Assembly (NCBI GenBank): GCA_033398695.1
Contig: CM065802.1
Coordinates: 148,352,096-148,416,095 of the forward strand
Origin: Orobanche coerulescens
Taxonomy: Eukaryota; Streptophyta; Magnoliopsida; Lamiales; Orobanchaceae
Direction: 5' to 3'
DNA: 64,000 nucleotides
Shown here in pieces: positions 19,034 through 63,095 of this stretch (its first letter is position 1; the number at the start of each line of letters is the position of its first letter). Position numbers and translations under genes: made by a program. The notes under the pieces are model-generated. The model did not search any database. It saw only the letters and a program-made list of their open reading frames with translations, and was not told the origin of the DNA.

Positions 19034-19034
19034 G

Positions 19035-28632: not shown

Positions 28633-28989
28633 TGTAACACCCCAATCTAGGCGGATATTACAGTGCCGTGGACCCCCGACTGGGACCCACCAGGCGAATG
28701 AAAATTAATGACTTAAATAATATAATTGTAGTACCGAACCACATTATATCATTAAATTACGCCGATGAGGGATTTCATTACAACACACCCAGGATAATAC
28801 AGAATACATGTATATTTTATATGAAGATAAAATATACAACACGGAATAAATGGGTATTCAAATGGAAGTCTGCAGCGGAAATAAAAATGAAATAAACATG
28901 AAGACTGAAAAGGACTGGGGCCCCCTACTAGTATCACTGGGACTCCTCGCCGTCAACGTTCTTTTCCCGTGCCTTAGCCTTGCCATGAC

Positions 28990-30150
28990 CTGAAAACAAC
29001 ATCCCCCAACGGGGTCAGTTACACAGAACAACAATCCTCAAGAGTTAAACAATATACAACAATCACATGAATGAATTAATGAATTAAGTTGAATGATGAG
29101 CATCAATGTACGCCCGAATGAACTGAGTAAGAGCACAAATAGCCGAGTGTCCGGAGCCCCTCATATACACCCGCTATTGGCCTAATTAGTCTCACGGTTC
29201 AATGTGTCCGGAGTCCCGCGTATACACATTACCGTGCGCACAGTCCAATGTGTCTGGAGTCCCACATATACACATGACCATAGTGTGCCCGACTACAATT
29301 TCACACATGCGCCAACTGGCCATGCAATATCATTCCGGAAGATCACCAGAACAAAAATGACCAAGGTGAGGAGTAATGAATAGAATCCGATAAGGATCAC
29401 GAATGACTCACCGAGATGAAATAATGATACAACGAGTGATAGCTTCAGTGAAATGATTTTGGAACCGTCGTTCCTCGTGAGTTACATGATGAGTTGATAA
29501 ATACAAGTCTCGACATGAACGATATATTATGAGTGAATTACAAGTATGAATGAACAACAACGTAAGGAATGAATATCCTTTTAACCGAGTAAGAATTTAC
29601 TTACACAATACCGGTGTTGAAATGTCCTTCCTCAAACAACGTCCTAAAAAGAGATGTGGTCGCTCGAACAACCTTGAACGACAATTACCAACAAACGCTC
29701 AATATACGTATCAAACACGATTATAACCAACTCAAACTTCGATACAACGATATCCAAACTCATTAAGGCTTTCTAACGAATACTTAGCAAACATACATCC
29801 TTTGACAATATCCAATCCCGAATATATCGAACCCAAACGCCAAAATGAATATTTCAAACCAACAAAACACCTTCAATTATATCAATAATCCCATAGGAAT
29901 CCACAACTCGAGTTAACGACAATAATCTAATCGAAAACCCCCAAAATATCAAAGTCAACCAAAAAGTGTTCCTAAATCAAACCCCAACAATTCATGAAAT
30001 CCGAAATATATGCCATTAAATCCATAAGAATACATTTATCCAAGGTAGATGATCCATATCTAACATATTCCAACAACAATCCAAGCTTACACGAAGAAAT
30101 CAGAAGGAAAATACCCAAAATTCGAAATTCTAGATCCAAGAAATAATTAC
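28990..30150 (-). other. Putative leader intron in the solo LTR
   Basis: Minus strand: donor AATCAAG|gtaattat after the TATA box and acceptor CCCGTTGGGGGATGTTG...ttttcag|GTCATGGCAAGG. The same donor and acceptor contexts recur in Tekay-1, Gypsy-3 and Gypsy-3b. Confidence 0.5.
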
Positions 30151-30323
30151 CTTGATTTGATGTGATGGAGATGATGAAATGATGATTAATCCGAATGATA
30201 AGTTTGATGATGATGATAGGTGAGTGCAGCTCGAAAAGATCTCTCCAAATCGCCCAAAATCGCCCGAAATCTCCGAACGAGTGAAGAGAGAATGACAAAT
30301 GACGAATCTGGACTGCACTGTCC

Positions 30324-30333
30324 AATATATACT
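30324..30333 (-). promoter_or_regulatory. TATA box of the solo LTR
   Basis: Minus strand CAGTATATATTGG lies directly downstream of the palindrome array and upstream of the putative leader donor. Confidence 0.6.
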
Positions 30334-30342
30334 GTTCCCAGA

Positions 30343-30904
30343 TTAGCGCACGCTACGACCTGTTATTTAGCGTGCGCTAACGGGTTCACCGGACAGTCCA
30401 GTGAACTCTGACTGCCGTTAGCGTACTCTACGAACTTGATAGCATGCGCTAACGCCCTCCCGATAGCGTGCGTTAACTCCAAAAGTTAGCGTGCGCTAGC
30501 TAAATACCTGATGTCCAGTGACCGAAGTCCAGAACCTCCTGTCCTATGACCTGCTTGCGATAGCTCGCTACATCCAATAATCAGCGTGCGCTACTGCCCC
30601 AATAGCGTACGCTAAAATCCACTCATAGCGTGCGCTAGGAATTATTCCAAAATCAGTCCAGTACCCACTGGACTCTGCCTGATCGGCCTTAGCGCGCGCT
30701 ACACGGACTGCATAGCGGGAGTTATCCAAACTTACTATCGTGCGCTACTTACCATTCGTAGCGTGCGCTACTCCAACTTGGCTGCAGTCCAGTGCCTTCT
30801 GGACTGCAGGCCTGAACCACATTAGCGCGCGCTAATGATAAGAGGTAGCGTGCGCTACCCGTACTCAATTAGCGCGTGCTAAAGAGAGTACGTAGCGTGC
30901 GCTA
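30343..30904. promoter_or_regulatory. Array of TAGCGTGCGCTA palindromes (about 18 sites)
   Basis: About 18 copies of a 12-bp palindrome in 560 bp: six exact TAGCGTGCGCTA, two TAGCGCGCGCTA, the rest one or two changes away. They are irregularly spaced and interspersed with GTCCAGT/ACTGGAC words. The array sits at the U3 position immediately upstream of the TATA box. Confidence 0.9.
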
Positions 30905-31137
30905 CTCCTCACACACAGCCCATTACGATGAAGATAATGATGATAACTACGGTTCGGTCCTCCAACCAGGTAGAAAGTCGAATAATAACTGATGCACGAT
31001 ACAATTTACTGTGAACATTGAATACAATGAATGAATATGAACGATGAATGATCATTAATGAGTGAATAATTACTGAGTGACAATTACTGAATGATAATTA
31101 CTGAATGATAATGACCGAATTACAACCGGGTATTATA

Positions 31138-31577
31138 AAGTCCTTCCTAGTTGCCGAGTTCCTGATCTGGACAAGAGACCACGGGGAGCGCTGCGCGGCC
31201 CGTAACAGCGAACGCTTCGCGGATTGATAGGGATGGGCGATCGAGTACTCCCAATAGTCGAACTTGGGACGCGGACCGGCCACTCTCTCCATAATTTCTC
31301 GGAAGACTGAATAGGCTTGGCCGAAGGTGCTATGTTGCTCCCAGTACGCCCTCACCGCCAACTCCTTCTCGACCAGCAAGCGTTTTTGCTTAGCCGCCGC
31401 CTCCCTGGCAGCATCGGCCTCGTTGAGTAGTTCCTCGACTTCCGCGGGATTAATACCAGCGCGGATAGCCTCGACAGCTGTATCCATGTGGAATTCTGCG
31501 GAGGATCCTTCCCGGGCAGTCGAAGTCTCGGCGGCGGAGCTAGTGCCCGATTCAGACATTGTAGGTACTCCAGACAT
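31138..31577 (-). CDS. Antisense gene of the Tat-like element, first half of exon 1
   Basis: ATG at 31577-31575 gives MSGVPTMSESGTSSAAET, an acidic/Ser-rich N terminus, then AGINPAEVEELLNEADAARE (helical) and HSTFGQAYSVFREIMERVAG. The solo LTR interrupts it after NSATRKD. The start was chosen as the first ATG after the TATA box at 31722-31730; a second in-frame ATG is six codons on. With the downstream exons this gives a protein of the size and order of known antisense ORFs in Tat-type elements. Confidence 0.72.
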
Positions 31578-32099: not shown

Positions 32100-32439
32100 T
32101 GTTGTGCGGCGATTAATACGCCTGGACGGTGATCGGCATAAGGCCGAGTGACCGAGTTCACGATCAAATGAGCCACGACAAACTTGCCAATCGAAGGTAA
32201 CAGTCCATCTTCGAGTATCTAGCGATCGACCTTTCGGAGCGATCGTCTCTTGGTACCTAGCGACCGAATCTGGTGCCCGACCAAGGACGACCGTCCTATG
32301 CCACGTATAAGTCCATCATCCATCATATCTACGAGGACTGGATCTCGGAGCGAGGACCCACGTGCAAGATCCGCGAATGGCACCACAGAATAAGGACCGT
32401 TGACTCCAGCCCATCAGCAGCTGTCAGTGACAAGGACGG
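32100..32439 (+). repeat. 3' LTR of the Tat-like element, left part
   Basis: TGTTGTGCGGCGATTAATACG matches 12682 onward and is interrupted after CAAGGACGG by Tekay-1. Confidence 0.93.
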
Positions 32440-32919
32440 TGTAACACCCCGATATATTTGGAATAATTACAGCGCCGTAAAACCTTTATATAAGAATTTA
32501 CAAGGCTAATTTGAGAAATACAAAAAAAAAATAATACTAAAGTGCCATTGCGGTTAAAATTTAAAACCAGTTCATCAATAATTCAAATGAGTCCATTATT
32601 ACAAAACATCCCCAAGACATCAACATATGTGCACTCGAGTACTAAAAATATAACCAGAAAACAAGACAACATAATTCACATCAATGAGCCACTTCATCGT
32701 CATGTCGGTACTGTGGTTGCTTCCCCGCTCTTCGGCTACCTAAACATCAAAACAAATGTCCACCCCCGAAGGGGTTAGCAAAACGATGCTAGTACAAGTA
32801 TCATAATACACAAATCGAATATGCAACAACAATGTATAACAAAATACATAATACGGACTTCCGCTATCGGAATCCGACACTGCGAATCCACGTGATTCCA
32901 TTAACACAACATGGGTATT

Positions 32920-33085
32920 CCAATGATCCAGCGCCCTCAGCATAGATCCCAAGATGATCCCGTCGGACCAACATGAGGTGGAAAAACCCGTCCAATGATC
33001 CAGCGCCCTCAGCATAGATCCCAAGATGATCCCGTCGGACCAACATGAGGTGGACATCCGATCCAGCGCCCTCAGCATAGATCGC
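32920..33085. repeat. 72-bp tandem repeat in the Tekay-1 3' LTR (about 2.3 units)
   Basis: Units at 32920 and 32992 share CCAATGATCCAGCGCCCTCA and GATCCCGTCGGACCAACATG, with a partial third unit at about 33061. The same array is at 40142-40305 in the other LTR. Confidence 0.93.
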
Positions 33086-34192
33086 ACAACATACTCAAAC
33101 ACAACTTATGCATACATGTACTCAAAAATCATTATGTTCATAAACATGAACATTCAAGCAATTGATAATGAATATCATGACAATTTAACGAAAATAATCT
33201 CATGTCCAACAATATGAACAAACAGTATACATGACCAAAAAAAAATCTCAAAATACGATACTTGCCTCAGAAATGGCGATAAGAATTGCTACTACGAATA
33301 AGCTTCAATCCGCTCGGATAATTCTCACTCGATCGCCTCACCAAAATCCAAACCTTCATCGAACAATAATACTGATATAACTAACGGTTCCGGATAGTCG
33401 TTTTAACCATCAAACGGATCATTTACAAGACATGTTATGCCCTATCATGGCGAGTGAACTAAATCTGCCCCAATTCGTTCGGTTGAATCAATACTACGCT
33501 ACTCGTCCGAACGACAACTTCGTCGAACACTATTCAAGTTAAAACGCATCTTTCGGTCGGATACATGAAATTCATCTTAGAAGGATTCTAATCAAATTCT
33601 TCCATAATAAGATATCGAAACACTTCTACGCATCATCATAAGAACTTAATCACTAGGTTCCTCTTAGATTATCATCTCCCTAATATTAATCCATTAACTT
33701 CTCCAACGAAAAGCTCGATCAATGATTTCTAAGGCTTAAGATAATATCTGAAAACTAGTTATAATAGGGTTTATAAATCTTAGAATGCTATATTCAGGAG
33801 TCTAATCACTAATAGGTTCGATCAACATGTTTAACAATGAAGGAGAACCGAATCACAACTGGACTCACTCTTCTAAAATCATGATGTTCGACTACTCATG
33901 AATATAACTGACTAGATAAACTCTAAACATGTACAAAACATCTCTAAGAATACGTTATCAAGTTGGTGAAGAATCCCTTACCTCAAAATAGTGAAGAACA
34001 AGGAGAAACTTGAAGAAACTCAACCCCGAGAGCTTGAACAACAATCCTCAATGGTCCATGATCTCCAAAATCAAGCTAGGATGATGATAAGTGAGTTAAA
34101 TGGTGAAGGATAGTCTTCAGAACCCAAAAAGCGGCCAAGGTAAGGATAATAAATGAAATGGGGTCGAGGTCTATAAATAGAATTATAATCCA

Positions 34193-34600
34193 TTACGTAC
34201 GTTACCCAAAGTCAATTACGTATGTAATCGCATTAGCGTACGCTATACTTAGCGTACGCTATACTCGAACATTAACATACGTTAACGTCTGGCCAGAGCT
34301 CACTAGACTGTTTCTGGTATTGGCTTACGTACGTTATAATACAGGCCTTATGTACGTAATGTATAGGACCTTAGCGTATGCTAAAAACCATACTTAGCGT
34401 ACGTTAAGTCCGTTGACTTGCATAGCTGGAAAGCCGTCCGGGTTCATGCGAGTGATCTCCTCGCATCTTCGTCAGGCCCCACACGCCGACCCTTGTCTAA
34501 TTCCGAGTTTGACTATGCTTACGTACGTAAATCTACACCTTTAACGTACGTTATACTGTAGTCGTAGCGTACATTATGATCATCCTTTAGCATACGTTAA
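34193..34600. promoter_or_regulatory. Array of TTACGTACGTAA / TAGCGTACGCTA palindromes, 3' LTR
   Basis: About a dozen sites (TTACGTACGTTA, TTAGCGTACGCTA, TTAACGTACGTTA and variants), all centred on GTAC. The array begins 13 bp from CTATAAATAG, on its U3 side. Confidence 0.88.
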
Positions 34601-34784
34601 GACGTGCAGAATTATGCATGCATGCATAGGAAAAAAATACCAAAAAAACGTAGGGATACGGGAAACTGATCATCGATTAATTTGTCACAAGGTCGAATCT
34701 TACAAGATCGAATACAGGATAAATACACATTAATTATCCGGGCATTATATACTACCCCTCTAAAAAGAAGTTTTGGCCTGAAAC

Positions 34785-36431
34785 TTAAAACGAAAACAAT
34801 TCCGGGTATCTTGACTTCATACTATCTTCAGTTTCCCAAGTTGCTTCTTCGACTCCATGTCGAGACCATTGAACTTTAACCAAGGAGATCGGTTTATTCC
34901 TCAATTGCTTGACTCGACTCTCAAGTATCTTGATTGGCTTTTCTTCGAACGAGCCATCATTAGCCACTTCAATCTCGCCAAAATCAATGATATGACTGGG
35001 ATCCGGTACATATTTCCGCAATTGGGATACGTGGAATACATTATGGACGTGACTCAGTGATGGCGGTAAGGCCAACCTGTATGCCAACTCTCCAACTCTC
35101 TCGAGGATCTCAAATGGTCCGATATATCTCGGACTTAGCTTACCTTTCCTCTCAAAACAGAAAATTCCTCGAGTAGGAGACACCTTCAATAGTACGTGGT
35201 CCTCAATCTCAAATTCTAGTGGGCGACGGCGCACATCACTATAATTCTGTCGACTCTGGGCAGTTAACAGTCTTTCACGAATCAGAGCTACCTTCTCTTG
35301 AGTCTGAACTATTAACTCTGGTTCTGTCCGAATCAAATCAAAAGAATCATCCCAACACAGGGGCGATCTACATCTTCTCCCGTACAACGCTTCAAACGGT
35401 GCCATCTTAATGGAAGCATGCCAACTATTGTTGTAGGTAAATTCAATTAACGGCAAGTGAACCTCCCAATCGGTTGACCAATCTAAGGCGCAAGCTCTTA
35501 GCATATCCTCTACTGTCTGTATAGTCCTCTCGGACTGACCGTCCGTCTGAGTATGATAAGCTGTGCTAAAATTCAGCTCGGTTCCCAAGGCCTTGTGAAC
35601 TTCCTTCCAAAAATGCGACACGAAACGACCATCTTGATCCGAAATAATGGTTTTCGGTGTTCCATGCAATCGGACTATCTCTGAAATAAATACTCGTGCC
35701 AACTTCTCGGTTCCCCACGTGTCTTTAATTCCTAGGAAATGAGCCGACTTGGTTAGTCGATCAACTACAACCCAAATCATGTTCATTCCCGTCTTGGTCC
35801 TTGGCATACTGGTGTTGAAGTCCATCGATATATCCTCCCACTTCCACTCAGGAATCGGAAGTGGCTTCAACATTCTGGCAGGTCGCTGATGTTCAATCTT
35901 AACCTGCTGACAAGTTAAACACTTCGAAACGTATTCTGCTACGTCCTTCTTCATATTTCCCCACCAGAAATTTTGTTTTACATCCTTATACATCTTACTG
36001 GTACCCGGGTGAATAGAATAGGGCGCGCTGTGAGCTTCCTTCAGAATTGTCTGTCTCAAAACATCATCATCGGGAACGCAAAGTCGACTCTGAAATCTCA
36101 GAACTCCATCATCTTGTATCACGAATCCTGGAGCCTTCCATTTATTTACTTCGTCACATAACCGAAGAATCAGAGAATCGTTCAACTGCTTAGATTTGAT
36201 TTCCTCGACTAGTGACGAAGTTAGTTCCATCACGTATAGTTGCCCTTGGACTCCTGGTGACCATACTTCAATCCCTTCGTGGATCAGTTCTCGTTGAATG
36301 CTGGTTTGGGACGTAAGCGCCTCCAACACTCGAAGAGAAACCAGTTTGCGGCTCAGTGCATCGGCTACCACGTTCGCTTTGCCTGGATGATAGAGGATTT
36401 CCAGGTCATAATCCTTAATTAGTTCTAGTCA
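34785..36431 (-). pseudogene. Tekay-1 integrase with chromodomain-like C terminus (end of pol)
   Basis: The segment is open after the TGA at 36431-36429. It starts with the last RNase H residues (VVADALSRK), then the HHCC zinc part (HPGTSKMYKDVKQNFWWGNM, CLTCQQVK). The catalytic core carries D (DISMDF), D (TIISDQDGRFVSHFW) and E ([16 protein letters not shown]). GPFEILERVGELAYRLALPP and LVKVQWSRHGVEEATWETED form the C-terminal chromodomain-type module. It ends SRYPELFSF with stop at 34787-34785. No break lies inside integrase. Confidence 0.93.
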
Positions 36432-39657: not shown

Positions 39658-41944
39658 TGTAACACCCCGATATATTCGGAATAATTACAGCGCCGTAAAT
39701 CCTTTATATAAGAATTTACAAGACTAATTTGAGAAATACAAAAAAAATAATAATACTAAAGTGCCATTGAGGTTAAAATTTAAAACCAGTTCAACAACAA
39801 TTCAAATGAGTCCATTATTACAAAACATCCCCAAAACATCAACAACATATGTGTACTCGAGTACTGAAAATATAACCAGAAAACAAGACAACATAATTCA
39901 CATCACTGAGCCACTTCATCGTCATGTCGGTACTGTGGTTGCTTCCCCGCTCCTCGGCTACCTGAACATCAAAACAAATGTCCACCCCCGAAGGGGTTAT
40001 CAAAACGATGCTAGTACAAGTATCATAATACATAAATTGAATATGCAACAACAATGCATAACAAAATACACAATACGGACTTCCGCTACCGGAATCCAAC
40101 ACTGCGAATCCACATGATTCCATTAACACAACATGGGTATTCCAATGATCCAGCGCCCTAAGCATAGATCCCAAGATGATCCCGTCGGACCAACACGAGG
40201 TGGAAAAACCCATCCAATGATCCAGCGCCCTCAGCATAGATCCCAAGATGATCCCGTCGGACCAACACGAGGTGGACATCCGATCCAGCGCCCTCAGCAT
40301 AGATCGCACAACATACTCAAACACAACTTATGCATACATGTACTCAAAAATCACTATGTTCATCAACATGAACATTCAAGCAATTGATAACAAATATCAT
40401 GACAATTTAACGAAAATAATCTCATGTCCAACAATATGAACAAACAGTATACATGACCAAAAAAATCTCATAATACGATACTTGCCTCAGAAATGGCGAT
40501 AAGCTACGAATAAGCTTCAATCCGCTCGGAGAATTCTCACTCGATCGGCTCACCAAAATCCAAACCTTTATCGAACAATAATACTGATATAACTAACAAT
40601 TCCGGATAGTCGTTTTAACCATCAAACGGATCATTTATAAGACATGTTATGCCCTATCATGGCGAGTAAACTAAATCTGCCCCAATTCGTTCGGTTGAAT
40701 CAATACTACGCTACTCATCCGAACGACAACTTTGTCGAACACTATTCAAGTTAAAACGCATCTTTCGGTCGGATACATGAAATTCATCTTAGAAGGATTC
40801 TAATCAAATTCTTCCATAATAAGATATCGAAACACTTCTACGTATCATCATAAGAACTTAATCACTAGGTTCCTCTTAGATTATCATCTCCCTAATATTA
40901 ATCCATTAACTTCTCCAACGAAAAGCTCGATCAATGATTTTTAAGGCTTAAGATAATCTCTGAAAACTAGTTATAATAGGGTTCATAAATCTTAGAATGC
41001 TATATTCAGGAGTCTAATCACTAATAGGTTCGATCAACATGTTTAACAATGAAGGAGAACAGAATTACAACTGGACTCACTCTTCTAAAATCATGATGTT
41101 CGACTACTCATGAATATAACTGACTAGATAAACTCTAAAACATGTTCAAAACATCTCTAAGAATACGTCATCAAGTTGGTGAAGAATCACTTACCTCAAA
41201 ATAGTGAATAACAAGGAGAAACTTGAAGAAACTCAACCCCGAGAGCTTGAACAACAATCCTCAATGGCCCATGATCTCCAAAATCAAGCTAGGATGATGA
41301 TAAGTGAGTTAAAGGTGAAGGATAGTCTTCAGAACCCAAAAATCGGCCAAGGTAAGGATGAGAAATGAAATGGGGTCGAGGTCTATAAATAGAATTATAA
41401 GCCATTACGTACGTTACCCAAAGTCAATTACGTACGTAATCACATTAGCGTACGCTATACTCGAACATTAACGTACGTTAACTTCTGGCTAGAGCTCACT
41501 GGACTGTTTCTGGTATTGGCTTACGTACGTTATAATACAGGCCTTACGTACGTAATGTATAGGACCTTAGCGTACGCTAAAAACCACCCTTAGCGTACAT
41601 TAAGTCCGTTGACTTGCATAACTGGAAAGCCATCCAGGTTCATGCGAGTGATCTCCTCGCATCTTCGTCAGGCCCCACACGTCGACCCTTGTCTGATTCC
41701 GAGTTTGACTATGCTTACGTACGTTAATCTACACCTTTAAAGTACGTTATACTGTAGTCGTAGCGTACGTTATGATCATCCTTTAGCATACGTTAAGACG
41801 TGCAGAATTATGCATGCATGCATAGGAAAAGAATACAAAAAAACGTAGGGATATGGGAAACTGATCATCGATTAATTTGTCACAAGGTCGAATCTTACAA
41901 GATCGAATACAGGATAAATACACATTAATTATCCGGGCATTACA
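39658..41944 (-). repeat. Tekay-1 5' LTR
   Basis: TGTAACACCCCGATAT to CGGGCATTACA. The putative leader intron is 41194-39962 (donor TTTGAG|gtaagt, acceptor gatgttcag|GTAGCC). The TATA-like CTATAAATAG is at 41383-41392 and the 72-bp repeat at 40142-40305. Confidence 0.93.
41403..41796. promoter_or_regulatory. Array of TTACGTACGTAA / TAGCGTACGCTA palindromes, 5' LTR
   Basis: Same arrangement as 34193-34600. Several sites are closer to a perfect palindrome in this copy (TTACGTACGTAA at about 41430, TAGCGTACGCTA at about 41448 and 41568). Confidence 0.88.
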
Positions 41945-41949
41945 GACGG

Positions 41950-44057: not shown

Positions 44058-44433
44058 TGTAATATCCGCAATTTGGATTTCCGGTAATTTTATTTTTTTT
44101 GGCGTAAGTCCATCTTAGTGACTCTATTTTTACCATTTCATCATTCCGAGAATGATTAATGCTACACTTTTTGTCATCCGAGTTCGTCTCGGTGTCGTTC
44201 TGTTGAGTTCCGTGTTCTTAAGCGACTTTTCCACGTATGAGTTCGACTTTGTAAAATCACCATTAATTTTTGGAAACTCCAAAAATTCTGAATCTTTTCA
44301 AAATTATAGAGCATCAAGTTAGCTTTCCAATGGTTCAAGCAGTGAGTCAATCGGAGTCTGGACGAGGGAGTTATGGTCGAAATAGCTAAGACACACACAT
44401 TTTCTAGTTTTGGCCGACCAGCCTGTACCGGGG

Positions 44434-44573
44434 GCCGCGGATCCTGCCGAAAGGGCCGCGGCACGCTGCCGAGTCACTCTGCACATTTTCTAGCTTGTGC
44501 CGCGGCACACTGCCGAGCACTGGGGGCAGATTTTGGCCCTGTGCCGCGGCACACTCGGCCGGGCCGCGGCACA
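44434..44573. promoter_or_regulatory. GTGCCGCGGCAC palindrome array, Gypsy-3 5' LTR
   Basis: Five GCCGCGG cores, two of them in exact GTGCCGCGGCAC 12-mers, in 140 bp of otherwise AT-rich LTR. The array ends about 12 bp before CTATAACTTCG. The same array is at 51174-51312 in the other LTR. Confidence 0.9.
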
Positions 44574-44770
44574 CAGCGCAGTCTGCACTATAACTTCGTT
44601 TTTTGAGAGGATCAAACTCATTTTCCATCCAATATTCAAGAGAGAGGGTTTGTGGGAGAAAGTTTCATCATAAATCACTTGAATACTCGATTCTTCATCA
44701 TTTTCATTCGGTTGTGAAGCTCGGATCGTCGATCTAACGCATAAGAATCAAAGTGTTTGGATCTTCAAAG

Positions 44771-45867
44771 GTAATATTCTCAAACCTCTTGGATTTTGAT
44801 TTGTGTTGAGATATGATGTTTTGGACGTTATAATCATGTTGTATGAAGTGATATACATATGATTATGAGTATATACGAATATTCATCGGATTATTGAAAG
44901 GTTATTCAAGAACACTTTGAATATTGAGTTGGATTTGGGGGTTTTCGATTAATTGTTGTTGAAATCACGAATATGGATATTCATATTGGATTATTGATCG
45001 TATTGAAGATGTTTTGTTGGTTTGAAACACTTCTTGGGGATTTGATATTGGTATTATTGAGGTTTGGTTGTAAACAATCGAAGTTTGGCCACAACGTGTT
45101 CGATATAATGCCCCAATGAACTTGGTTTAGTCGTATCGACGTTTTGAGTTAGTTATACTCGTGTTTGATTCGTGTGTTGAACCGTATTATTGGTAATTAT
45201 GTTATTCAAGGTTGTTCGAGCGACCGACATCTCATTTAGGATGTTGTTCGTGGAAGGACATTCTTCATCGGCGTTGTGTAAGTTAATTCTTACTCGATTA
45301 AAAGGATATTCATTCCTTTTATTGTTGTTCATTCATAATCATAACTCATTCATCATTGTATTAACCGTATCGAGACTTGTAATTGTCGAATAATCATTTC
45401 ATTCACGAGGAACGACGGTTCCAATCATTTCATTGGGTTATCAATCACTTCACTATTATTTTCATCTCGGTGAGTCATTCTTGATCTTGTCGGATTATTA
45501 TTCATTGATATTCATTGTGGTCATTCTCGTTCATATGACCTTCTGGGTTCATATTGCGTGGCCGGGTGCGGATGTGTGGAATTTTTAGTCGAGCATGTGA
45601 TGATCATGTATTGGGTCACCGATACATTGGACTGTGCACACGGTAACGATTACCTCCGTGAGACTAATTAGGTACAAGGACGGGTATGTCCGGTCATTCG
45701 TCTTGTACACTTGCACAGAACATTACGGGCGTACTATGATACTCCTCTTCAGTTTAATTCATAACTAAGGATATTTCATAACTAAAGATATATCATGATT
45801 GTGTATTTTCAACCCTTGAGGATTGTTGTTCTGTGTAACTGACCCCGTTGGGGGATTATTTTTTCAG
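44771..45867 (+). other. Putative leader intron in the Gypsy-3 5' LTR (1097 nt)
   Basis: Donor TCTTCAAAG|gtaata and acceptor ttattttttcag|GTCACGGCAAGG, with the small hairpin CCCCGTTGGGGG just upstream of the acceptor. The 3' LTR has the same pair at 51517 and 52612. Confidence 0.5.
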
Positions 45868-46223
45868 GTCACGGCAAGGCAAAGGCACGGGAAGAGCATG
45901 TTGACGGTGAGGAGTCCCAGTGATACTAGTAGGGGCCCCCAATCCTGTCAGTCATTCACGTTATTGTCATTTATTTTCCGCTGCAGATTTTCATTTGGAT
46001 ACTCCGTTTCATTCAGGGTTGTGTATTTTATCTTCATATAAAATATACTAGTATTCGGTATTGTCCTGGTGTTTTGTACTTAAACTCCTCATCGGAGTAT
46101 TTGGTAATATAATGTGGTTCGGTACTACAATTATATTATTTAATTCATCAGTTTTCATTCGCCTGGTGGGTCCCAGTCGGGGATCCACGACACTGTAATA
46201 TCCGCCTAATTTGGGGTGTTACA

Positions 46224-50400: not shown

Positions 50401-50413
50401 AAGGGGGGGTGTA

Positions 50414-50762: not shown

Positions 50763-50799
50763 AAGTTTCGGGACGGAACTTCTTTTAAGGAGGGTAGTA

Positions 50800-52968
50800 T
50801 GTAATATCCGCAATTTGGATTTCCGGTAATTTTATTTTTTTGGCGGAAGTCCAACTTAGTGAGTCTATTTTTACCATTTCGTCATTCCGAGAATGATTAA
50901 TTCTACACTTTTTGTCATCCGAGTTCGTCTCGGTGTCGTTCTGTTGAGTTCCGTGTTCTTAAGCGACTTTTCCACGTATGAGTTCGACTTTGTAAAATCA
51001 CCATTAATTTTTGGAAACTCCAAAAATTCTGAATCTTTTCAATATTATAGAGCATCAAGTTAGCTTTCCATTGGTTCAAGCGGTGAGTCAATTGGAGTCT
51101 GTACGAGGGAGTTATGGTCGAAATAGCTAAGACACACACATTTTCTAGTTTTGGCCGACCAGCCTGTACCGGGGGCCGCGGCTCCTGCCGGAAGGGCCGC
51201 GGCATGCTGCCGAGTCACTGTGCACATTTTCTAGCCTGTGCCGCGGCACACTGCCGAGCACTGGGGGCAGATTTTGGCCCTGTGCCGCGGCACACTCGGC
51301 CGGGCCGCGGCACACAGTGCAGTCTGCACTATAACTTCGTTTTTTTAGAGGATCAAACTCATTTTCCATCCTATATTCGAGAGAGAGGGTTTGTGGGAGA
51401 AAGTTTCATCATCAATCACTTGAATACTCGATTCTTCATCATTTTCATTCGGATGTGAAGCTCGGATCGTCGATCTAACACATATTCATCGAATCAAAGT
51501 GTTAGGATCTTCAAAGGTAATATTCCCAAACCTCTTGGATTTCGATTTGTGTTGAGATATGATGTTTTGGACGTTATAATCATGTTGTATGAAGTGATAT
51601 ACATATGATTATGAGTATATATGAATATTCATCCGATTATCGAAAGGTTATTCAAGAACACTTTGAATATTGAGTTGGATTTGGGGGTTTTCGATTAATT
51701 GTTGTTGAAATCACGAATATGGATATTCATATTGGATTATTGATCGTATTGAAGATGTTTTGTTGGTTTGAAACACTTCTTGGGGATTTGATATTGGTAT
51801 TATTGAGGTTTGGTTGTAAACAATCGAAGTTTGGCCACAACGTGTTCGATATAATGCCCCAATGAACTTGGTTTAGTCGTATCGACGTTTTGAGTTAGTT
51901 ATACTCGTGTTTGATTCGTGTGTTGAACCGTATTATTGGTAATTGTGTTATTCAAGGTTGTTCGAGCGACCGACATCTCATTTAGGACGTTGTTCGTGGA
52001 AGGACGTTCTTCATCGGCATTGTGTAAGTTAATTCTTACTCGGTTAAAAGGATATTCATTCCTTTTGTTGTTGTTCATTCATAATCATAACTCATTCATC
52101 ATTGTATTAACCGTATTGAGACTTGTAACGTCGAATAATCATTTCATTCACGAGGAACGACGGTTCCAATCATTTCATTGGGTTATCAATCACTTCACTA
52201 TTATTTTCATCTCGGTGAGTCATTCTTGATCTTGTCGGATTATTATTCATTGATATTCATTGTGGTCATTCTCGTTCATATGACCTTCTGGGTTCATATT
52301 GCGTGGCCGGGTGCGGATGTGTGGAATTTTTTGTCGAGCACGCGATGGTCATGTATTGGGTCACCGATACATTGGACTGTGCACACGGTAACGATTACCT
52401 CCGTGAGACTAATTAGGTATAAGGACGGGTGTGTCCGATCATTCGTCTTGTACACTTGCACAGAACATTACGGGCGTACTATGATACTCCTCTTCAGCTT
52501 AATTCATAACTAAGGATATTTCATAACAAAAGATATATCATGATTGTATATTTTCAACCCTTGAGGATTGTTGTTATATGTTACTGACCCCGTTGGGGGA
52601 TTTTGTTTTCAGGTCACGGCAAGGCAAAGGCATGGGAAGAGCATGTTGACGGCGAGGAGTCCCAGTGATACTAGTAGGGGGACCCAATCCTTTCAGTCAT
52701 TCACGTTATTGTCATTTATTTTCCGCTGCAGATTTTCATTTGGATACTCCGTTTCATTCAGGGTTGTGTATTTTATCTTCATATAAAATATACTAGTATT
52801 CGGTATTGTCCTGGTGTAATTGTACTTAAACTCCTCATCGGAGTATTTGGTAATATAATGTGGTTCGGTACTACAATTATATTATTTAATTGATCAGTTT
52901 TCATTTGCCTGGTGGGTCCCAGTCGGGATCCACGGCACTGTAATATCCACCTAATTTGGGGTGTTACA
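50800..52968 (+). repeat. Gypsy-3 3' LTR
   Basis: Nearly identical to the 5' LTR, including the palindrome array (51174-51312) and the putative intron borders (51517-52612). Confidence 0.94.
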
Positions 52969-52973
52969 TAAGG

Positions 52974-53862: not shown

Positions 53863-53868
53863 TTCCTT

Positions 53869-55975: not shown

Positions 55976-57085
55976 TCAGTCCATGACCGGAATGGATACA
56001 GTATTTTTGTGCCCCTTGGGCAAAACAAGTACATCTTCTAAAGTCAAAACAAAGCCGGATTCTAAACCCAGAATAAGTGATCCTATGTGAGACGCCTCGA
56101 CACTATGCCCGCTTCCGACTGTGATCATAACTTCTCCAGCTCCAAGCTTCCTACTTTGTTCCAGATCCTGATTCACGGTACAAATATGAGAACTAGCACC
56201 AGAATCCAGTATCCAGGAAGTAGAAAATACAGTAGCACAACAATTTGTTTCCAAAACAAAAAGTTCTGTACCTGAAGTGCCATGAAGAATCGGACAGTCT
56301 CTAGCCCAGTGGACCAGCTCACCGCACTTGAGACAAGCATCCTTCTTCTTCTTGTTCTTTGGAACCATCGGGGCCTTGCCCTTTCCCTTAAGGTCCTTAG
56401 CTTGTGGTCTAGTCCGCTTCTTGGTCTTTTTCTTCATATTCTTAGACTTCCGAAGTCCAGAAGAAATCACAAGGGCAGACTCCTTCATTCGCGGAGTTTT
56501 CATCTGAGACTAAGCGGTCACCAGTTTGTTCATTAGCCCAGCTAAGTTACATGCAATCTCATTGCAGTTAAAGTTCATAACAAACTGTGAGAAGGAATCA
56601 GGAAGAGACTGTAGGATAAGGTCGGTTTGGAGAGAAGTATCCACAAGAGCCTCCAATATCTCGATCATGGATATCATTTTGAGGACATGTTCCCCAACTT
56701 TATCACCTTCCTTCATCCTTGCACCGAACAGTTGCTTGGATATCTCATATCTAGCAGTTCTGCTGTGCTCACCATAAAGTTCGGTTAAGTGAGATAGAAT
56801 CTGCCTAGCAGAAGTCATTTTCTCATGAACTCTCTGAAGCTCATTAGACATAGAAGCCATCATGTATGCACGGACTTTTACGTCATCCTTAACCCACTTT
56901 TCGTGGTTTTCGATCTCTTCCTGATTGGCTCTGGTCCGCACAGGAGGCGCCAGAATGTCCGTCTCCAAGACGTATCCCAGTGCCTCTATACTGAGGACTA
57001 TCATCAGATTGCGGAGCCAGTCCACAAAGTTAGGTCCAGTCAGGGTGTTCTTCTCGAGTAGAATTGCGAGTGGATTCATTGTCAT
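55976..57085 (-). pseudogene. Copia-2 gag and protease
   Basis: ATG at 57085 (MTMNPLAILLEKNTLTGPNF) is chosen because Copia-1 starts identically. Gag blocks LLEKNTLTGPNFVDWLRNLM, SNELQRVHEKMTSARQILSH and LQTDLILQSLPDSFSQFVMN. TAG at 56512-56510, then in the same frame the CCHC knuckle CLKCGELVHWARDC and protease SWILDSGASSHIC with LEDVLVLPKGHKNTVSIP. Stop at 55978-55976. Confidence 0.92.
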
Positions 57086-58726
57086 ATTGAGATTTGTCTG
57101 CATTAAGTATAACATATTAATTAGTGACTTGTTATATTATGATCTGAGTATAGAATTAAGGCCTTTTCTATTCTTGTTACCCAGCTCCCACTATTTATAT
57201 CGGAATAACACACTCCCATGTGATATTTGGAAGTATCGTCGCTCTACTTCATAGTGGTGATCGAGTTCTTTATAAATCTAAATAGAGGGCAACCGAACAT
57301 GTTTCTAGTCTATTAAGTTTCATAAAGTGGTGTCCAACACCAACCCATCTAATGGATGATTCGATCTTCTTTTTCCCCTTGTTCACTCCCCTCAACCTAT
57401 ACGGTTTCTATGGTTCATGAACAAGTTAAGTTTATACCATCGACGCAAATCAGTTTCACAATTGAATCTTATCCGGCAACCTATCAGGTTTCTAGGGATA
57501 AAATTTGCTCCAATCAAAGGCATCTAATTTGCTCCCGGTAATTTATCCATCCTCCCCGAACAACTACCCCGATAACTCGGAAGCATAGCACATCCGGTTT
57601 GGATTTCAATTTCCCGAAAGCTCGATGGAGGGAAGGAAAACCTTGAAACCTTATAAACTTAATAATTTGTTGTGGGAGAATTATCGCGATTAAAGTTACA
57701 CTTTGCACATTAATCATTTAAGCGCGTTTGTGGCATTCATACAACATGAAACAACCATTCACAACCTAGTTGCTACCAACATGTGGTTCATGGACCGTTC
57801 CTAGAAAACAAAAACTCCGTAATCTAATTACAAGTCTTCGTCTTCTCAAAATGGATCTTCCTCCGGTCTTCGTCATTACATATAAATTTTACATTGAAAA
57901 TCCTAGATATAAATTTTTTCTAGTAAAATAAATAAGCTCAAAACGGCCTTTACAACCCAATCGAATAAAACGAACGATTCAAAAACTAAGTCCACGAACC
58001 ACATCACCATTCAAAAGCATTCATCCAATAAATACTAAATAAATGGAAAACGTAGAGATACATTGATCCAATCAACAATATGAACCGATCAAATCGATTC
58101 ACACAATCGGTAATATGAAAACGTTCAAAATAATTCGGTCGATCACAAGTATTCCAATAAACCAATTTTCCCTTATAAAATAAAATACCATAAATCATTT
58201 TAATCATATTAAATCTAATTTAAAATGAGTAAAATCATTTTTAGGAATACACGAAGCAAACAAGCCCGAAACGGGTCCGAAATAGGCCGAACCGCGGCCG
58301 AAAACGCCACCAGCGGCATGCGTGGCCGCCAGCTGCCGCGGCCCGGCCGCGGCCCCTTGAGCTCGGGTTGCGGCCCCAAGTCTGCCGCTTCCCAGCCGGC
58401 CGCAACAGCCACAGGCCGCGGTCCTCGAGCCCCGGGCCGCGCCCTCGCTCCGACCACCCCGGACCGTCCAACGGCAATTCGGGGCTAGTTTTTCGACCGA
58501 ATATCCAATATCTATATTCTCCAACATTCATATCTTCAATATAAATCATATTTCCAAGAAATTAAGATTTATATTTAGACAAACTTACAAAAAATATAAC
58601 TACAACGAACGTAAAAACATATACCACGATTATGACTAAAATGATTCCAAATCATTTACCATCTAATCAAGCATTCCAAATGCCAATATCGTATATACGA
58701 TCGCAAGACCTACGCTCCGATACCAC
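57086..58726 (-). other. Copia-2 leader with PBS and GC-rich patch
   Basis: The iMet PBS TGGTATCGGAGC (minus, 58725-58714) is one base from the LTR. The leader is non-coding and AT-rich except 58260-58490, a GC-rich patch with CCGCGGCC/GCCGCGG palindromes that create long spurious ORFs on both strands. Confidence 0.8.
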
Positions 58727-60684
58727 TGTTGGGATTCGGTGCCTAAAACGAAGGCCCAGCGGAAGCGGTAAAACGAAAAATTAATTCGATCCGAATCCCT
58801 ACGAGGATCGATCGAGCTACGTATATACGAACATATAAACAAAAAGCAAGAGTTGTAAGAAACTCACCCTTGAAGTCCGTTGATTAAATGGCAACCTTCT
58901 CTTGATCTATTCCCCAAGCTTTGCTTGATCTCTACGAATCCAATCCGCTTCAAGCCCTTGAACGATCCAACGCCGAAAGCACCGCGTCTCTACTTGCCAC
59001 GCGCCGGAAAATCGATCGGAACAATACTCACCTCGTTATCCTCCAAGGATGCGGCTAGATCAAGGTGAGTAAGCTTGTTATAGATATTAATATCACTCTA
59101 AGTGTATGAATATCTATCTCTCTCAATATTTCCTCACAAAATTTCTCTAAGAAGTTGTGAAGAAGATGAATAAAGAAGAAGATGATGAAGAAGACTTCTA
59201 TCTCTCTCTCCTCTTGCAACCTCACGCTGGAATGGAATCAAATGAATGAGGTAAGTTTGATGAGAAGTCTTCCTCTCTTTATTCTATTTCCACTCACATG
59301 CAAAACAAATAATCCCATATGATATTTTGCCCCACAAGCCATGTTCCTTAATATTAAAAGGAAACAACAGGACAATGGGAAGGTGGGTGGAAGGGGTTGG
59401 GGTGGCCCATGTAGAAATCGGACGAGTTCGGTTCGTTTCGGACTCCCGAAAGTCCAAACAGATAAACTCCAATTCCGATTCGATGTATTTATATCGATTA
59501 ATTAATCCAATTAATTAAACATATCAAATACAAAATAATATAATTAATTTCTCCAAGAAATAATTATATTCATGAATTAAAATAATCACCCAGTAATTTA
59601 TTTAATTCATTTAGGCCGTAAATCAATTTATCCAATAAATCGATTTAGACATCTATTGTCCCAAATTAGATATCCAATATCTAATATTTATAATGAGAGA
59701 ATAAGCTCGATTCATTCCGTCGTCAATCCTATTGCGCGACTCGGTAGGTCCGTCTCAGTCAGCAATGGGAGGAACCAAAGAGTAGTAGCACCACCTAGCC
59801 AGCCTGGCGGCCTACACTGTACCCCAACTGAGAACGAATGATTGGGATCATTCAAGAACCATTCTGTCGTGAATACCAGTAAACGTATAAACCCTTCTTT
59901 CAAATGTCCCGATCAAGTTATAGGGTTACGGTCAGTCAAACCCTATCTTTACTTGATGCTATGCATGCATTAATGCAAATCGAGATCATCGAGCTGTCGT
60001 GTATCTAATACAACTAGCTCCAATGCTTTGGCCAAAGACTTATGATCTCATCTGCAAATAACCGCATAGGACATATAACCCGCTCACTAACGGGAGAAAG
60101 AATTCTATCTTGGTATTCAGTAGGACCTTCTACTTGCCCGTCAAGATGCACATCGAGGTTGACCCCCGCCTTCCGGTTTACAGGGTCGAACTACGCTAAT
60201 GATAATCTTAACGTCACAAGCACATCCCTACTAAATCCTCAAGTCGAAGGTTCACGAATACCTATCACAACCTTTCGATTCCGTCATTGACTATCCCGGA
60301 GTGAAATCCGTGTGACGAATCGAGGGTGAGTCGGTTCGAGTATACTAATCCAATTAGCATACCTATAACGTGTGCTCCCACTAACCATTAGCGTTCGACA
60401 GGCACTCTCCATGTCAAAGAACACGTCATACAAGTCTTCACATAAACTTAATGCCCAGTCAAGTTTCATTGACTTGCGAACGATTAAGTATTTGAGCTAT
60501 AAACCTTTCCAGTGCCGACCCCCGTATCCAATAAGGAGTGGAACGTTTTGCTCTCAAATACAAGGACTAGTTTCTATATGTATATTTACGAGTTAGGAAT
60601 GCCAGTAACTACCAGTAAATACAGAAACATTCATTGCCTTATATAATTGATTTACATAATTACAAGTGCAATGCCCTCACTCAA
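58727..60684 (-). repeat. Copia-2 5' LTR, interrupted by Gypsy-3b
   Basis: TGTTGGGATTCGGTGCC to GTGCAATGCCCTCACTCAA. It matches 42255-44057 plus 52974-53120; the last roughly 40 bp should follow Gypsy-3b outside the window. Confidence 0.93.
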
Positions 60685-61109
60685 TGTAACACCCCTAACT
60701 AGGCGGATATTACAGTGCCGTGGACCCCCGACTGGGACCCACCAGGCGAGTGAAAATGAATGAAATACACAGGGTAAATGTAGTACCGAACTACATTACA
60801 TCATTAATTACTCCGTTGAGGAGTTTCATTATAACACACCCAAGAAAATACCGAATATATGTTTATTTTATATGAAGATAAAATACACAACACTGAACAA
60901 AACGGAGTATCCAAATGAAAATCTGCAGCGGAAAATAAATGACAACAATATGAATGACTGAAAGGATTGGGGCCCCCTACTAGTATCACTGGGACTCCTC
61001 GCCGTCAACATTATATTCCCGTGCTTTTGCCTTGCCATGACCTGAAAACAAAATCCCCCAACGGGGTCAGTTACACAGAACAACAATCCTCAAGAGTTGA
61101 ATAAACACA

Positions 61110-61113
<4 letters not shown>

Positions 61114-61146
<33 letters not shown>
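61114..61146. repeat. (AT)n microsatellite
   Basis: About 33 bp of AT repeats inside the putative leader intron of the Gypsy-3b LTR. Absent from Gypsy-3. Confidence 0.95.
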
Positions 61147-61148
<2 letters not shown>

Positions 61149-62436
61149 TGTATAAACCACAAGTTCGATAAAAAATGAAACGATTAGTTTATAACCCAAT
61201 CTTGTTGAAAACATACGCAATCAAACATGCTGTATGAATCAACTAATGGTACAGATCAAAGGGTGGCGCCACATTACGCCTGGGATGGAAATGTGTCCGT
61301 GCACAAGCCACCAATGAGTATCGATCGAATACACGTGTGTTCTTGCACCTAATCAGTCTCACGCAGCAATCGACTCATGTGCGCAGTCCAATGTGCGGCC
61401 ACAAACCAACACATGACTTAAATGTGCCCGACATGAAAATCCTACACATACCAACCGGCACGCCAGTATGACCCGGAATGCCACGAGATAACAAAGTGAC
61501 ATCGAAATCAATAATGACTCACCGAGGTGAAATGATAGTGAAATGAATGACAGCTCAATGAAATGATTGGAACCGTCGTTCCTTGTGACTGAAGTGATTA
61601 ATTGACAATGACAAGTATTGATACGGTTAATACAATGATGAATGAGTTATGATTATGAATGAACAACAACAAAAGGAATGAATATCCTTTTAACCGAGTA
61701 AGAATTAACTTACCTTAACACCGGTGATGATACGATTTCTCTCGAACAACATCCTAAATGAGACGTCGGTCGCTCGAACAACCTTGAATAACACAATTAC
61801 CAATAATTCGGTTCAACACATGAATCAAACACGAGTATAACGAACTCAAAACGTCGATACGATTAAACCAAGTTCATTGGAGCATTATATCGAACACTTT
61901 GTGGCCAAACTTCGATTGTTTACAATCAAACTTCAATAATACCAACATCAAATCCCCAAGAAGTGTTTCAAACCAACAAAACATCTTCAATACGATCAAT
62001 AATCCAATATGAATATTCAAATTCGTGATTACAACAACGATTAATCGAAAACCTCCAAATCCAACTCAATATTCAAAGTGTTCTTGAATAATCCTTCAAT
62101 AATCCAATGAATAATCAAACATATCCATAATCATGCGTATATCACTTCATACAACAAGATCTTAACATCCAAAACATCATATCTCAATAAAAAATCGAAA
62201 TCCAAGATGTTGAAGAAATTACCTCTTGAAGATCCAAGCACTTTGATCCGAAGAACACGCATTAGATCGACTATCCGTGCTTCACGATCGAAAGGAGATG
62301 AAGAAAAACCAAGTATTCAAGTGATAGATGAAGGAAAGTCTCCCCCTCAATCCTTCTCTCTCGGATATAGGTGGAAGAATGGGAAAAATGGGTTGATTCT
62401 CACAAAAACCCGCAATTATAGTGCAGACTGCACTGT

Positions 62437-62690
62437 GTGCTGCGGCCCAGCCGAAGTGTGCCACGGCACAGGGCCAAAACTGCCCCCAGTGATCGGCAGC
62501 GTGCCGCGGCCCGGACGAATGTGCCGCGGCAGTGTGCCGCGGCCCTGTCGGCATGAGCCGCGGCCCCCGGTACAGACGGGTTGGCCGATAATTGAAAAAT
62601 GTGTGTGTGCGCCGCGGCTAGGCCAAGTGTGCTGCGGAAGTGACTCGGCAGTGTGCCACGGCCCTTCCGGCAGGAGCCGCGGCCCCCGGT
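62437..62690. promoter_or_regulatory. GTGCCGCGGCAC palindrome array, Gypsy-3b LTR (expanded)
   Basis: About ten GTGCCGCGGC-type cores, some degraded to GTGCCACGGC or GTGCTGCGGC (C-to-T-like changes at CpG), over 250 bp, against five cores in 140 bp in Gypsy-3. It lies next to CTATAATTGCGG on the TATA side. Confidence 0.88.
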
Positions 62691-63095
62691 ACAGGCTGCT
62701 CGGCCAAAACTGGAAAATGTGAGTGACTTAGATATTTCGACCATAACTCCCTCGTTCGGACTCCGATTGACTCACCGTTTGAACCATTGGAAAGCTAACT
62801 TAATGCTCTATAAGATTTAAAAGATTCAGAATTTTTGGAGTTTCCAAAAATTAATGGTGATTTTACAAAGTCGAACTCATACGTGGAAAAGTCGCTTAAG
62901 AACACGGAACTCAACAGAACGACACCGAGACGAACTCGGATGACAAAAAGTGTAGAATTAATCATCCTCGGAATGATGAAACGGTAACAATAGAGTCGCT
63001 AAGATGGACTTCCGCCAAAAAAATAAAATTATCGGAAATCCAAATTGCGGATATTACATACTACCCTCCTTAAAAGAAGTTTCGTCCCGAAACTT

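Follow-up and report, generated by a model that had tools for sequence, protein, structure and literature searches.

Palindrome arrays with a 23-bp pitch upstream of the TATA-like box in Ty3/gypsy long terminal repeats of Orobanche coerulescens: candidate binding sites for a dimeric protein

Palindromes that accumulate in the promoter region of plant retrotransposons have a close precedent in the repeated motifs of Sireviruses. In PMC2829016 (Bousios et al. 2010), 13 of these Ty1/copia elements are reported to carry family-specific palindromes, at least eight copies each, which lie mostly in the upper half of the long terminal repeat (LTR), upstream of the TATA box, and are conserved amid diverging flanks. 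According to the same paper, the motifs define CpG islands, contain a CGG-CCG core in all but one case, and were not found in the classic copia elements used for comparison. Here we describe palindrome arrays in LTRs of Ty3/gypsy elements from a 64,000-nucleotide stretch of the 3.65 Gb genome of Orobanche coerulescens (assembly GCA_033398695.1, contig CM065802.1, positions 148,352,096 to 148,416,095), hereafter the window. An earlier account drawn from the letters of this stretch (the sequence-only reading) held that no named system describes such arrays; the Sirevirus motifs, as portrayed in PMC2829016, are just such a system of family-specific U3 palindromes upstream of TATA.

Parallels with other elements can also be drawn. 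VANC proteins of VANDAL transposons counteract silencing through family-specific short motifs. As in the arrays described here, short family-specific motifs are amassed in non-coding parts of the element; however, VANDALs are DNA transposons whose factor is encoded by the element, whereas the scanned pieces of Tekay-1, one of the window's gypsy elements, contain gag-pol domains only. LTRs of the Tnt1 type have repeat boxes in U3, which turns over between subfamilies. The likeness lies in the enhancer repeats of U3 and in a U3 that changes while other parts stay related, and the difference in the small number of Tnt1 boxes; to our knowledge, neither tetrads nor a fixed pitch are described for Tnt1. 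Arrays of cis repeats that are sometimes palindromic are mentioned in PMC10760457.

The six gypsy LTRs of the window belong to the following elements, of which Tekay-1, Gypsy-3 and the Gypsy-3b LTR were placed by self-comparison and open reading frames.

28633..31137, minus strand: R1 solo LTR, devoid of genes, with the 5-bp target duplication AAGTC at 28628-28632 and 31138-31142
32440-41942, minus strand: Tekay-1 element
39658..41942, minus strand: Tekay-1 5' LTR
32440..34747, minus strand: Tekay-1 3' LTR
44058-52968, plus strand: Gypsy-3 element
44058..46223, plus strand: Gypsy-3 5' LTR
50800..52968, plus strand: Gypsy-3 3' LTR
60685..63058, minus strand: Gypsy-3b 3' LTR, the element continuing beyond the window edge

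The paired LTRs are 95.4% (Tekay-1) and 96.8% (Gypsy-3) identical. Scanned pieces of Tekay-1 yielded gag, protease, reverse transcriptase (RT)/RNase H and integrase, with RT and RNase H preceding integrase, which is the Ty3/gypsy order. A chromodomain match in Tekay-1 was weak (19.5 bits against a cut-off of 25.1), and none was found in the eight Gypsy-3 and Gypsy-3b pieces scanned. Among the 120 RT matches listed, of 7979, all named relatives come from plants and identity reaches 72%. Tekay is a provisional label taken over from the sequence-only reading.

The sites of R1 and Tekay-1 share one 12-bp form, TWRCG-N2-CGYWA, which consists of two inverted 5-bp half-sites around a 2-bp centre. The Gypsy-3 palindrome, GTGCCGCGGCAC, differs from this form and contains GCCG/CGGC. 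Of the family-specific words proposed earlier, that of Gypsy-3 is therefore distinct, whereas those of R1 and Tekay-1 merge into a single form. When motif sites in each LTR were counted against 100 exact dinucleotide shuffles (R1 being entered 5 bp short), the palindromes reported previously were recovered at their positions and far exceeded the shuffles in all six LTRs: 17 sites in R1 (shuffles: mean 0.56, maximum 3), 12 in the Tekay-1 5' LTR (mean 0.06, maximum 2), 13 in its 3' LTR (mean 0.06, maximum 1), 4 and 5 in the Gypsy-3 LTRs and 8 in Gypsy-3b (means 0.00-0.04, maximum 1). The central dinucleotide is TA in 12 of 12 Tekay-1 sites; among the 17 sites of R1 it is CA in ten, CG in three, TA in two, and CC and TG in one each, and the TAGCG half-sites are mostly kept.

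A detector for near-palindromic 12-mers that contain CG and recur within 700 bp, run with 20 shuffles per region, gave similar results. A loose version returned mostly AT-rich groups, with an AT-rich word outranking the CG palindromes in a Gypsy-3 LTR, and the version used required CG plus at least four G/C. Its scores for the six gypsy LTRs are 16, 12, 10, 5, 5 and 8 (shuffle maxima 2-3); the interior of Tekay-1 scored 2 and that of Gypsy-3 scored 1, and window positions 1-9000 gave a group of 3 (shuffle maximum 2). One LTR from each of the window's two copia elements scored 1, with no array. The observed/expected CpG ratio of the array compared with the rest of the LTR is 1.23/1.06 in R1, 1.65/1.01 and 1.73/1.11 in Tekay-1, 0.93/1.15 and 0.85/1.18 in Gypsy-3, and 0.95/1.13 in Gypsy-3b. 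Over the whole window this ratio is 1.0, which seems high for repeat-rich plant DNA.

The sites of R1 and Tekay-1 are arranged in pairs and tetrads with a pitch of mostly 23 (21-24) bp. Successive spacings, with semicolons separating groups and the gaps between them, are 23, 24, 23; 64; 23, 23, 23; 64; 23, 21; 95; 23, 24, 21; 51; 24 bp in R1 and 23, 23, 23; 124; 23, 24, 23; 52; 23, 18, 23 bp in the Tekay-1 5' LTR. The 95-bp gap of R1 holds a fourth site that is degenerate in the window copy and has the exact family motif in 19 of 35 copies, and thus the R1 array reads as 4+4+4+4+2. Neighbouring sites are 22-24 bp apart in 10 of 16 cases in R1 and in 8 of 11 and 8 of 12 cases in the Tekay-1 5' and 3' LTRs. 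Random placement predicts 1.3, 0.9 and 1.0 such spacings, respectively (p <= 5e-5 each), and the description of these sites as irregularly spaced is therefore incorrect for R1 and Tekay-1. The Gypsy-3 and Gypsy-3b spacings are 20-21 and 43-44 bp, plus one of 13 and one of 98 bp.

30823..30904, minus strand: R1 tetrad 1 (distal), TAGCG-N2-CGCTA sites, spacing 23/24/23
30690..30770, minus strand: R1 tetrad 2, spacing 23/23/23
30559..30637, minus strand: R1 tetrad 3, the degenerate site being 30559-30570
30419..30498, minus strand: R1 tetrad 4, spacing 23/24/21
30344..30379, minus strand: R1 TATA-proximal pair, spacing 24
30324..30335, minus strand: R1 TATA-like box
41715..41795, minus strand: Tekay-1 5' LTR tetrad 1 (distal), TWRCG-TA-CGYWA sites, spacing 23/23/23
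41521..41602, minus strand: Tekay-1 5' LTR tetrad 2, spacing 23/24/23
41405..41480, minus strand: Tekay-1 5' LTR tetrad 3 (TATA-proximal), spacing 23/18/23
41383..41392, minus strand: Tekay-1 5' LTR TATA-like box, CTATTTATAG
34193..34599, minus strand: Tekay-1 3' LTR array, 13 sites, the extra site arising from a 16-bp tandem duplication (34233-34265)
34171..34180, minus strand: Tekay-1 3' LTR TATA-like box
44432..44572, plus strand: Gypsy-3 5' LTR array, GTGCCGCGGCAC-type sites, spacing 20-21 and 44 bp
44588..44593, plus strand: Gypsy-3 5' LTR CTATAA box
51173..51313, plus strand: Gypsy-3 3' LTR array, with CTATAA at 51329
62437..62685, minus strand: Gypsy-3b array, 8 sites at no more than two mismatches, partly duplicated, with CTATAA at 62416-62421

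Read along the element strand, each of the six arrays stops a short way 5' of a TATA-like word, as the earlier claim of a common U3 position beside TATA had it. The word quoted for the Tekay-1 box, CTATAAATAG, is that of the opposite strand; on the minus strand of the element the box reads CTATTTATAG. The distance from the centre of the last palindrome to the centre of the box is 21.5 bp in R1, 23 bp in the Tekay-1 5' LTR and 24 bp in all three Gypsy-3 and Gypsy-3b LTRs, such that the TATA-like box of U3 arrays stands about one pitch beyond the final site. No site with one mismatch or fewer occurs 3' of TATA in R1 or Tekay-1. Directly distal to the arrays of both Tekay-1 LTRs (34615-34626 and 41811-41822) is TGCATGCATGCA, which we take to be an RY-like word of the kind bound by B3 domains.

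In R1 and Tekay-1, the DNA between the sites is unrelated from one interval to the next. Within the array, agreement among motif copies is 0.858 in R1 and 0.819 in Tekay-1, whereas the 11-bp spacers agree at 0.267 and 0.269 in R1 (random 0.264) and at 0.274 and 0.263 in Tekay-1 (random 0.271). Spacer agreement in Gypsy-3 and Gypsy-3b is 0.29-0.40, and those arrays must therefore derive in part from tandem duplication.

The same motif and pitch recur elsewhere in the genome. A sample of 20 random 10-kb stretches (200 kb) contained 122 exact matches to TWRCG-N2-CGYWA, whereas five shuffled versions gave 0, 0, 3, 0 and 2, and each of ten altered motifs 0-5; this form is the union of the R1 and Tekay-1 motifs and was written after TTACGGCCGTAA arrays were known, so that the count is not fully blind. 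All but one of the 122 sites fall into 20 arrays in 12 of the stretches. Their spacings include 33 of 23 bp, 13 of 24 bp and three of 22 bp, and none of 25-40 bp. Runs of one to six sites (no more than one mismatch, spacing 18-25 bp) number 17, 26, 4, 21, 0 and 1, with twos and fours prominent. A TATA word lies 9-15 bp from the array end, a range picked after inspection of the array neighbourhoods, in seven of the 20 arrays, compared with 0.23 expected from shuffled flanks. For six of these seven (L085, L088, L089, L092, L099 and L101), orientation by LTR or pol homology could be set against the TATA side, and it agrees in all six. The detector, set to at least four copies, found 26 arrays in the 20 stretches and none in one shuffle of each; 19 have the TWRCG form, one is of the Gypsy-3 type and six use other words, and TTACGGCCGTAA-type arrays make up seven of the 26. 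In the 3' LTR of L089, the U3 array beside TATA is followed about 830 bp past TATA, before U5, by a second array; the 5' LTR has one at the matching place, and L090 has the same layout with its second array in R/U5.

L089:1671-1926 and 9130-9475: R/U5 arrays, 23-bp pitch
L090:7404-7619: R/U5 array, 23-bp pitch

Further palindrome clusters in these stretches, of the TCCGGATACGGA and GGCCTATCGGCC types (L084:5593-5722; L093:7614-7723 and 9526-9626), lack the 23-bp pitch, and the probes used gave no gypsy or copia pol match for them. At L091:2098-2272, GTGCCGCGGCAC-type sites stand as three pairs spaced 19-21 bp, which means that the Gypsy-3 word is also found paired.

Comparison of related copies indicates that motif and spacing were under selection while the elements replicated. 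We aligned the window copy with 26 Tekay-1-type copies (27 rows) and with 34 R1-type copies (35 rows), and took non-CpG variants present in at least two copies as mostly replication-era and singletons as mostly post-insertion. The 144 motif columns of Tekay-1 contain 2 shared non-CpG variants, compared with 39 in the 247 spacer columns of the array and 20 in the 119 columns beyond it (0.014/0.158/0.168); in R1 the counts are 15 in 216, 54 in 345 and 35 in 120 (0.069/0.157/0.292). Such variants are thus rarer in motif than in spacer by 11-fold and 2.3-fold, respectively. Singletons in motif, spacer and outside columns number 28, 79 and 36 in Tekay-1 (0.194, 0.320 and 0.303 per column) and 76, 128 and 43 in R1 (0.352, 0.371 and 0.358); the low motif value of Tekay-1 is due in part to its many CpG transitions, which are counted separately. 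The shared-to-singleton contrast between motif and in-array spacer gives Fisher p values of 0.0028 (Tekay-1) and 0.0185 (R1), which are approximate because the aligned copies are the closest matches to the window copy and are related to one another.

Intervals within tetrads have their commonest length in 26-27 of 27 Tekay-1 rows and 32-35 of 35 R1 rows, whereas length differences of 1-4 bp are seen among copies in four of the six longer linkers. The Tekay-1 LTRs disagree with each other at 8 of 144 motif positions (six being CpG transitions), at 11 of 247 spacer positions and at 55 of 1889 elsewhere; between Gypsy-3 and Gypsy-3b the differences are 5 of 60, 11 of 80 and 308 of 1996. The variant and LTR-pair counts together indicate that motifs were kept during replication and decay once inserted.

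These arrays resemble the Sirevirus motifs in several respects. At least eight palindromes are found in R1 (17), Tekay-1 (12 and 13) and Gypsy-3b (8), though only 4 and 5 in the Gypsy-3 LTRs, and the cluster lies 5' of TATA in all six window LTRs and in seven of the 20 random-stretch arrays. In contrast, the hosts there are Ty1/copia and here Ty3/gypsy elements, and the CGG-CCG core there is replaced here by the TWRCG half-site, or by GCCG/CGGC in Gypsy-3, with one R1 linker palindrome coming close. The accessible part of PMC2829016 contains no spacing rule to set beside the 23-bp pairs and tetrads, nor was such a rule found in the portions consulted of the other literature searched, including PMC11656987, PMC10794571 and PMC6911290. 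We therefore rate family-specific palindromes upstream of TATA as known, and the Ty3/gypsy setting, the TWRCG core, the 23-bp grammar and the scale as new.

Three of the longer linkers of R1 hold the following sequences.

30782..30808, minus strand: R1 linker inverted repeat CAGTCCAG/CTGGACTG, centred mid-linker
30655..30674, minus strand: R1 linker inverted repeat AGTCCAGT/ACTGGACT, centred mid-linker
30384..30406, minus strand: R1 linker palindrome matching the OPIE-2/PREM-2 motif, in the 51-bp linker

Both 64-bp linkers carry a (C)AGTCCAG inverted repeat with its centre no more than 1 bp from the linker middle, and the 72-bp linker has two direct half-sites and no inverted repeat. The palindrome of the 51-bp linker, centred 4 bp off the middle, differs at just one of 17 bases from the OPIE-2/PREM-2 Sirevirus motif. 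This is the sole match in the window among 12 distinct published Sirevirus motifs (two mismatches allowed at 15 bases or more, one at 12-14 and none in shorter motifs). The word has one mismatch in nine of the 35 R1 copies and most commonly two (13 copies), and none was found within two mismatches in the random stretches. A linker motif, Q (CAGTCCAGTG), occurs mid-linker in R1 and once in Tekay-1. Its half-sites are found six times in the R1 array at no more than one mismatch (500 shuffles: mean 0.55, maximum 4), and exact copies in the random stretches number two in 5806 bp of array and one in 194194 bp elsewhere. In Q columns, whose borders were set after the columns were inspected, shared non-CpG variants are only somewhat rarer than in the remaining columns (0.156 versus 0.218 in R1; 0.121 versus 0.186 in Tekay-1), and Q is noted here as no more than a side finding.

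The sequence-only reading had also proposed that sites turn over between families, and related LTRs do carry different arrays. Two segments of R/U5, about 0.7 and 0.5 kb long, align between R1 and Gypsy-3 at 74-83% identity, but U3 shows no match and the arrays there differ. Ten sequences in the random stretches match the initial 188 bp of the Gypsy-3 LTR. Five adjoin TTACGGCCGTAA arrays (L087 at 63%; L088 twice, L101 and L103 at 77-85%), one lies beside a TG-centred array (L099) and one beside a mixed array (L094), and the stretches of the others (L097 with two, and L085) contain Gypsy-3-type words somewhere. LTRs with a Tekay-1-like U5 bear R1-type arrays with mixed CA, CG, TG and TA centres in L090, L092 and L101, and TA-centred ones in L089. 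The type of array thus follows LTR descent only in part.

Beyond this genome, viral contigs gave no loci, whether queried with one protein, with one alignment or with two patterns of spaced motifs. A scan of genome contigs returned 13 loci, all in records that bear bacterial names; long RT matches were present in 11. The gypsy DNA in these records (L001-L011; e.g. Streptomyces, Mycobacterium and Labilibacter) is likely to be eukaryotic contamination, for instance from plants. Five loci whose U3 could be placed by a purine tract or primer site were scored (L002, L003, L007, L009 and L010). In L010 (600-830), ACTTACGCAAGT recurs in 19-bp tandem units that end shortly before the TATA-like TATATTAG, and the LTR is followed by the primer site TGGTATCAGAGC. 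Such arrays therefore exist in another genome, with a different word and pitch.

We consider it somewhat probable that the arrays are dimer-binding cis-regulatory sites in Ty3/gypsy (Tekay-like) LTRs for a protein that is probably encoded by the host. Each 12-bp palindrome would bind one dimer through its two inverted TWRCG half-sites around the 2-bp centre. Dimers on pairs and tetrads at 23-bp pitch would line up next to the core promoter as an ordered complex, which may drive or tune LTR transcription, with TATA about one pitch past the last U3 site. Gypsy-3 would have a different palindrome at the equivalent position, with a pitch of about 21 bp. Inverted half-sites, a variable centre, the pitch, even-numbered groups and the TATA distance all fit an assembly of dimers on DNA, and they lend support to the earlier suggestion of a repeated dimer-type site placed relative to TATA; in R1 and Tekay-1 the palindromes are neither at chance frequency nor unpositioned, nor do they form a satellite. 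Simple same-face helical stacking was rejected as the cause of the pitch, since 23 bp falls between whole numbers of 10.5-bp turns. LOB-domain proteins were considered, and nothing is claimed for them.

Several results weigh against sites of this kind. Gypsy-3 fits less well, with few sites, a different core and signs of tandem duplication, and spacings of 22-24 bp are absent from its two LTRs and Gypsy-3b (0 of 3, 0 of 4 and 0 of 7). In the random stretches, the excess is smaller when one mismatch is allowed (200 versus 43-46), and 13 of the 20 arrays have no TATA at 9-15 bp, five having it farther away and eight having none within 60 bp. The R/U5 arrays of L089 and L090 mean that the TATA register is not universal. 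Only one of the five scored gypsy LTRs from other genomes has an array (L010), so that arrays are not present in every gypsy LTR. No single known factor fits all families, and the kinship among the aligned copies makes the Fisher p values approximate.

A transcription factor of the NAC family would be a special case of the dimer-site interpretation, and a rather improbable one. NAC proteins would suit the Tekay-1 half-sites: T[TAG][AG]CGT[AG], which we take to be a loosened NAC core, has 21 matches in the array of the Tekay-1 5' LTR (mean 2.2 and maximum 7 in 300 shuffles), 11 in R1 (mean 1.8, maximum 6) and eight in L010 (mean 0.85, maximum 4). However, seven of the 17 R1 sites have no loosened-core half-site, the T of CGT is not kept in R1 or in the TTACGGCCGTAA type, and the Gypsy-3 and Gypsy-3b arrays contain no match. 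In PMC4081100, NAC dimers bind the core TTNCGT[G/A] and the palindromic site screened for is CGT-N7/8-ACG, whereas the sites here read CGTACG or have no CGT. Instead of a classical activator, the arrays could attract a chromatin or anti-silencing factor, by analogy with VANC of VANDAL elements. Dense family-specific short motifs in non-coding DNA, with one CpG per half-site, would suit such a factor, and demethylation near a promoter would matter. We regard this as unlikely, given that the scanned Tekay-1 pieces gave only gag, protease, RT/RNase H, integrase and a weak chromodomain, and that motif CpGs are lost after insertion (six of the eight motif differences between the Tekay-1 LTRs), which suggests that most are unprotected once the element is silent.

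It is slightly less likely still that the palindromes work as RNA or single-stranded DNA, with neighbouring 12-mers pairing into hairpins that feed host small interfering RNA (siRNA) production or serve an RNA-stage role. Such a route to siRNA has been proposed for LTR palindromes of maize Sireviruses, and siRNA hotspots at Sirevirus palindromes are reported in PMC10760457 and PMC5311732. The R/U5 arrays would lie in the transcript, and in a comparison with 40 shuffles folding is better for the R1 array (z -3.8) and weakly so for Tekay-1 (z -2.0), with two controls at 0.7 and -0.7. However, folding of the Gypsy-3 and Gypsy-3b arrays is only weakly better than shuffled (z -1.4 and -1.6), and tetrad neighbours are hardly more complementary than other pairs (0.791 versus 0.792 in R1; 0.785 versus 0.773 in Tekay-1). 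The CA centre shared on the element strand by 10 of 17 R1 sites would mismatch on pairing, and hairpins predict neither a fixed pitch nor a fixed TATA distance. An origin as ordinary tandem or satellite repeats that slippage amplified and that are now in decay is very improbable overall. Duplication has contributed in places, as in the 16-bp repeat of the Tekay-1 3' LTR, the duplicated segment of Gypsy-3b, the 19-bp units of L010 and the spacer agreement of Gypsy-3. Decay of a tandem array would strike motif and spacer equally, whereas in R1 and Tekay-1 the spacers are random, the motifs agree at 0.82-0.86 and shared variants avoid the motifs; this origin is therefore refuted for these two families.

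The remaining features of the window concern the surroundings of the gypsy elements.

17186-27013: copia element
42255-60684: second copia element, split by Gypsy-3

The start of Gypsy-3b (60685) directly abuts the end of the second copia element. Positions 12682-13310 are a paralogue of the segment into which Tekay-1 is inserted (32100-32440 and 41945-42238); on it the Tekay-1 flanks overlap by about 6 bp, which fits a target duplication of 5-6 bp. A 72-bp tandem repeat is present in R/U5 of both Tekay-1 LTRs (32919-33054 and 40141-40276).

A broader proposal, which we hold to be possible but doubtful, is that many or most gypsy families share one grammar read by one protein family: TWRCG half-sites with a family-specific centre (TA, GC or CA/CG), pairs and tetrads at 23 bp and, in U3, TATA at the next register position. 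If so, unrelated LTR families would compete for, or escape, a single regulator and related LTRs would swap arrays. The roughly two million sites that 122 per 200 kb implies for the genome would then constitute a very large decoy load.

Plant LTR promoters diverge fast, and their regulatory logic is mostly unreadable. In these U3 regions the spacers are randomised while sites, pitch, grouping and TATA distance are kept, and the footprint of a protein assembly may therefore be readable from sequence. In a large plant genome, the arrays would lead directly to the regulator of some very common repeats, and would help to show whether conflict with silencing causes such sites to be gained, swapped or lost. 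They also extend the palindrome theme from Sireviruses to Ty3/gypsy elements.

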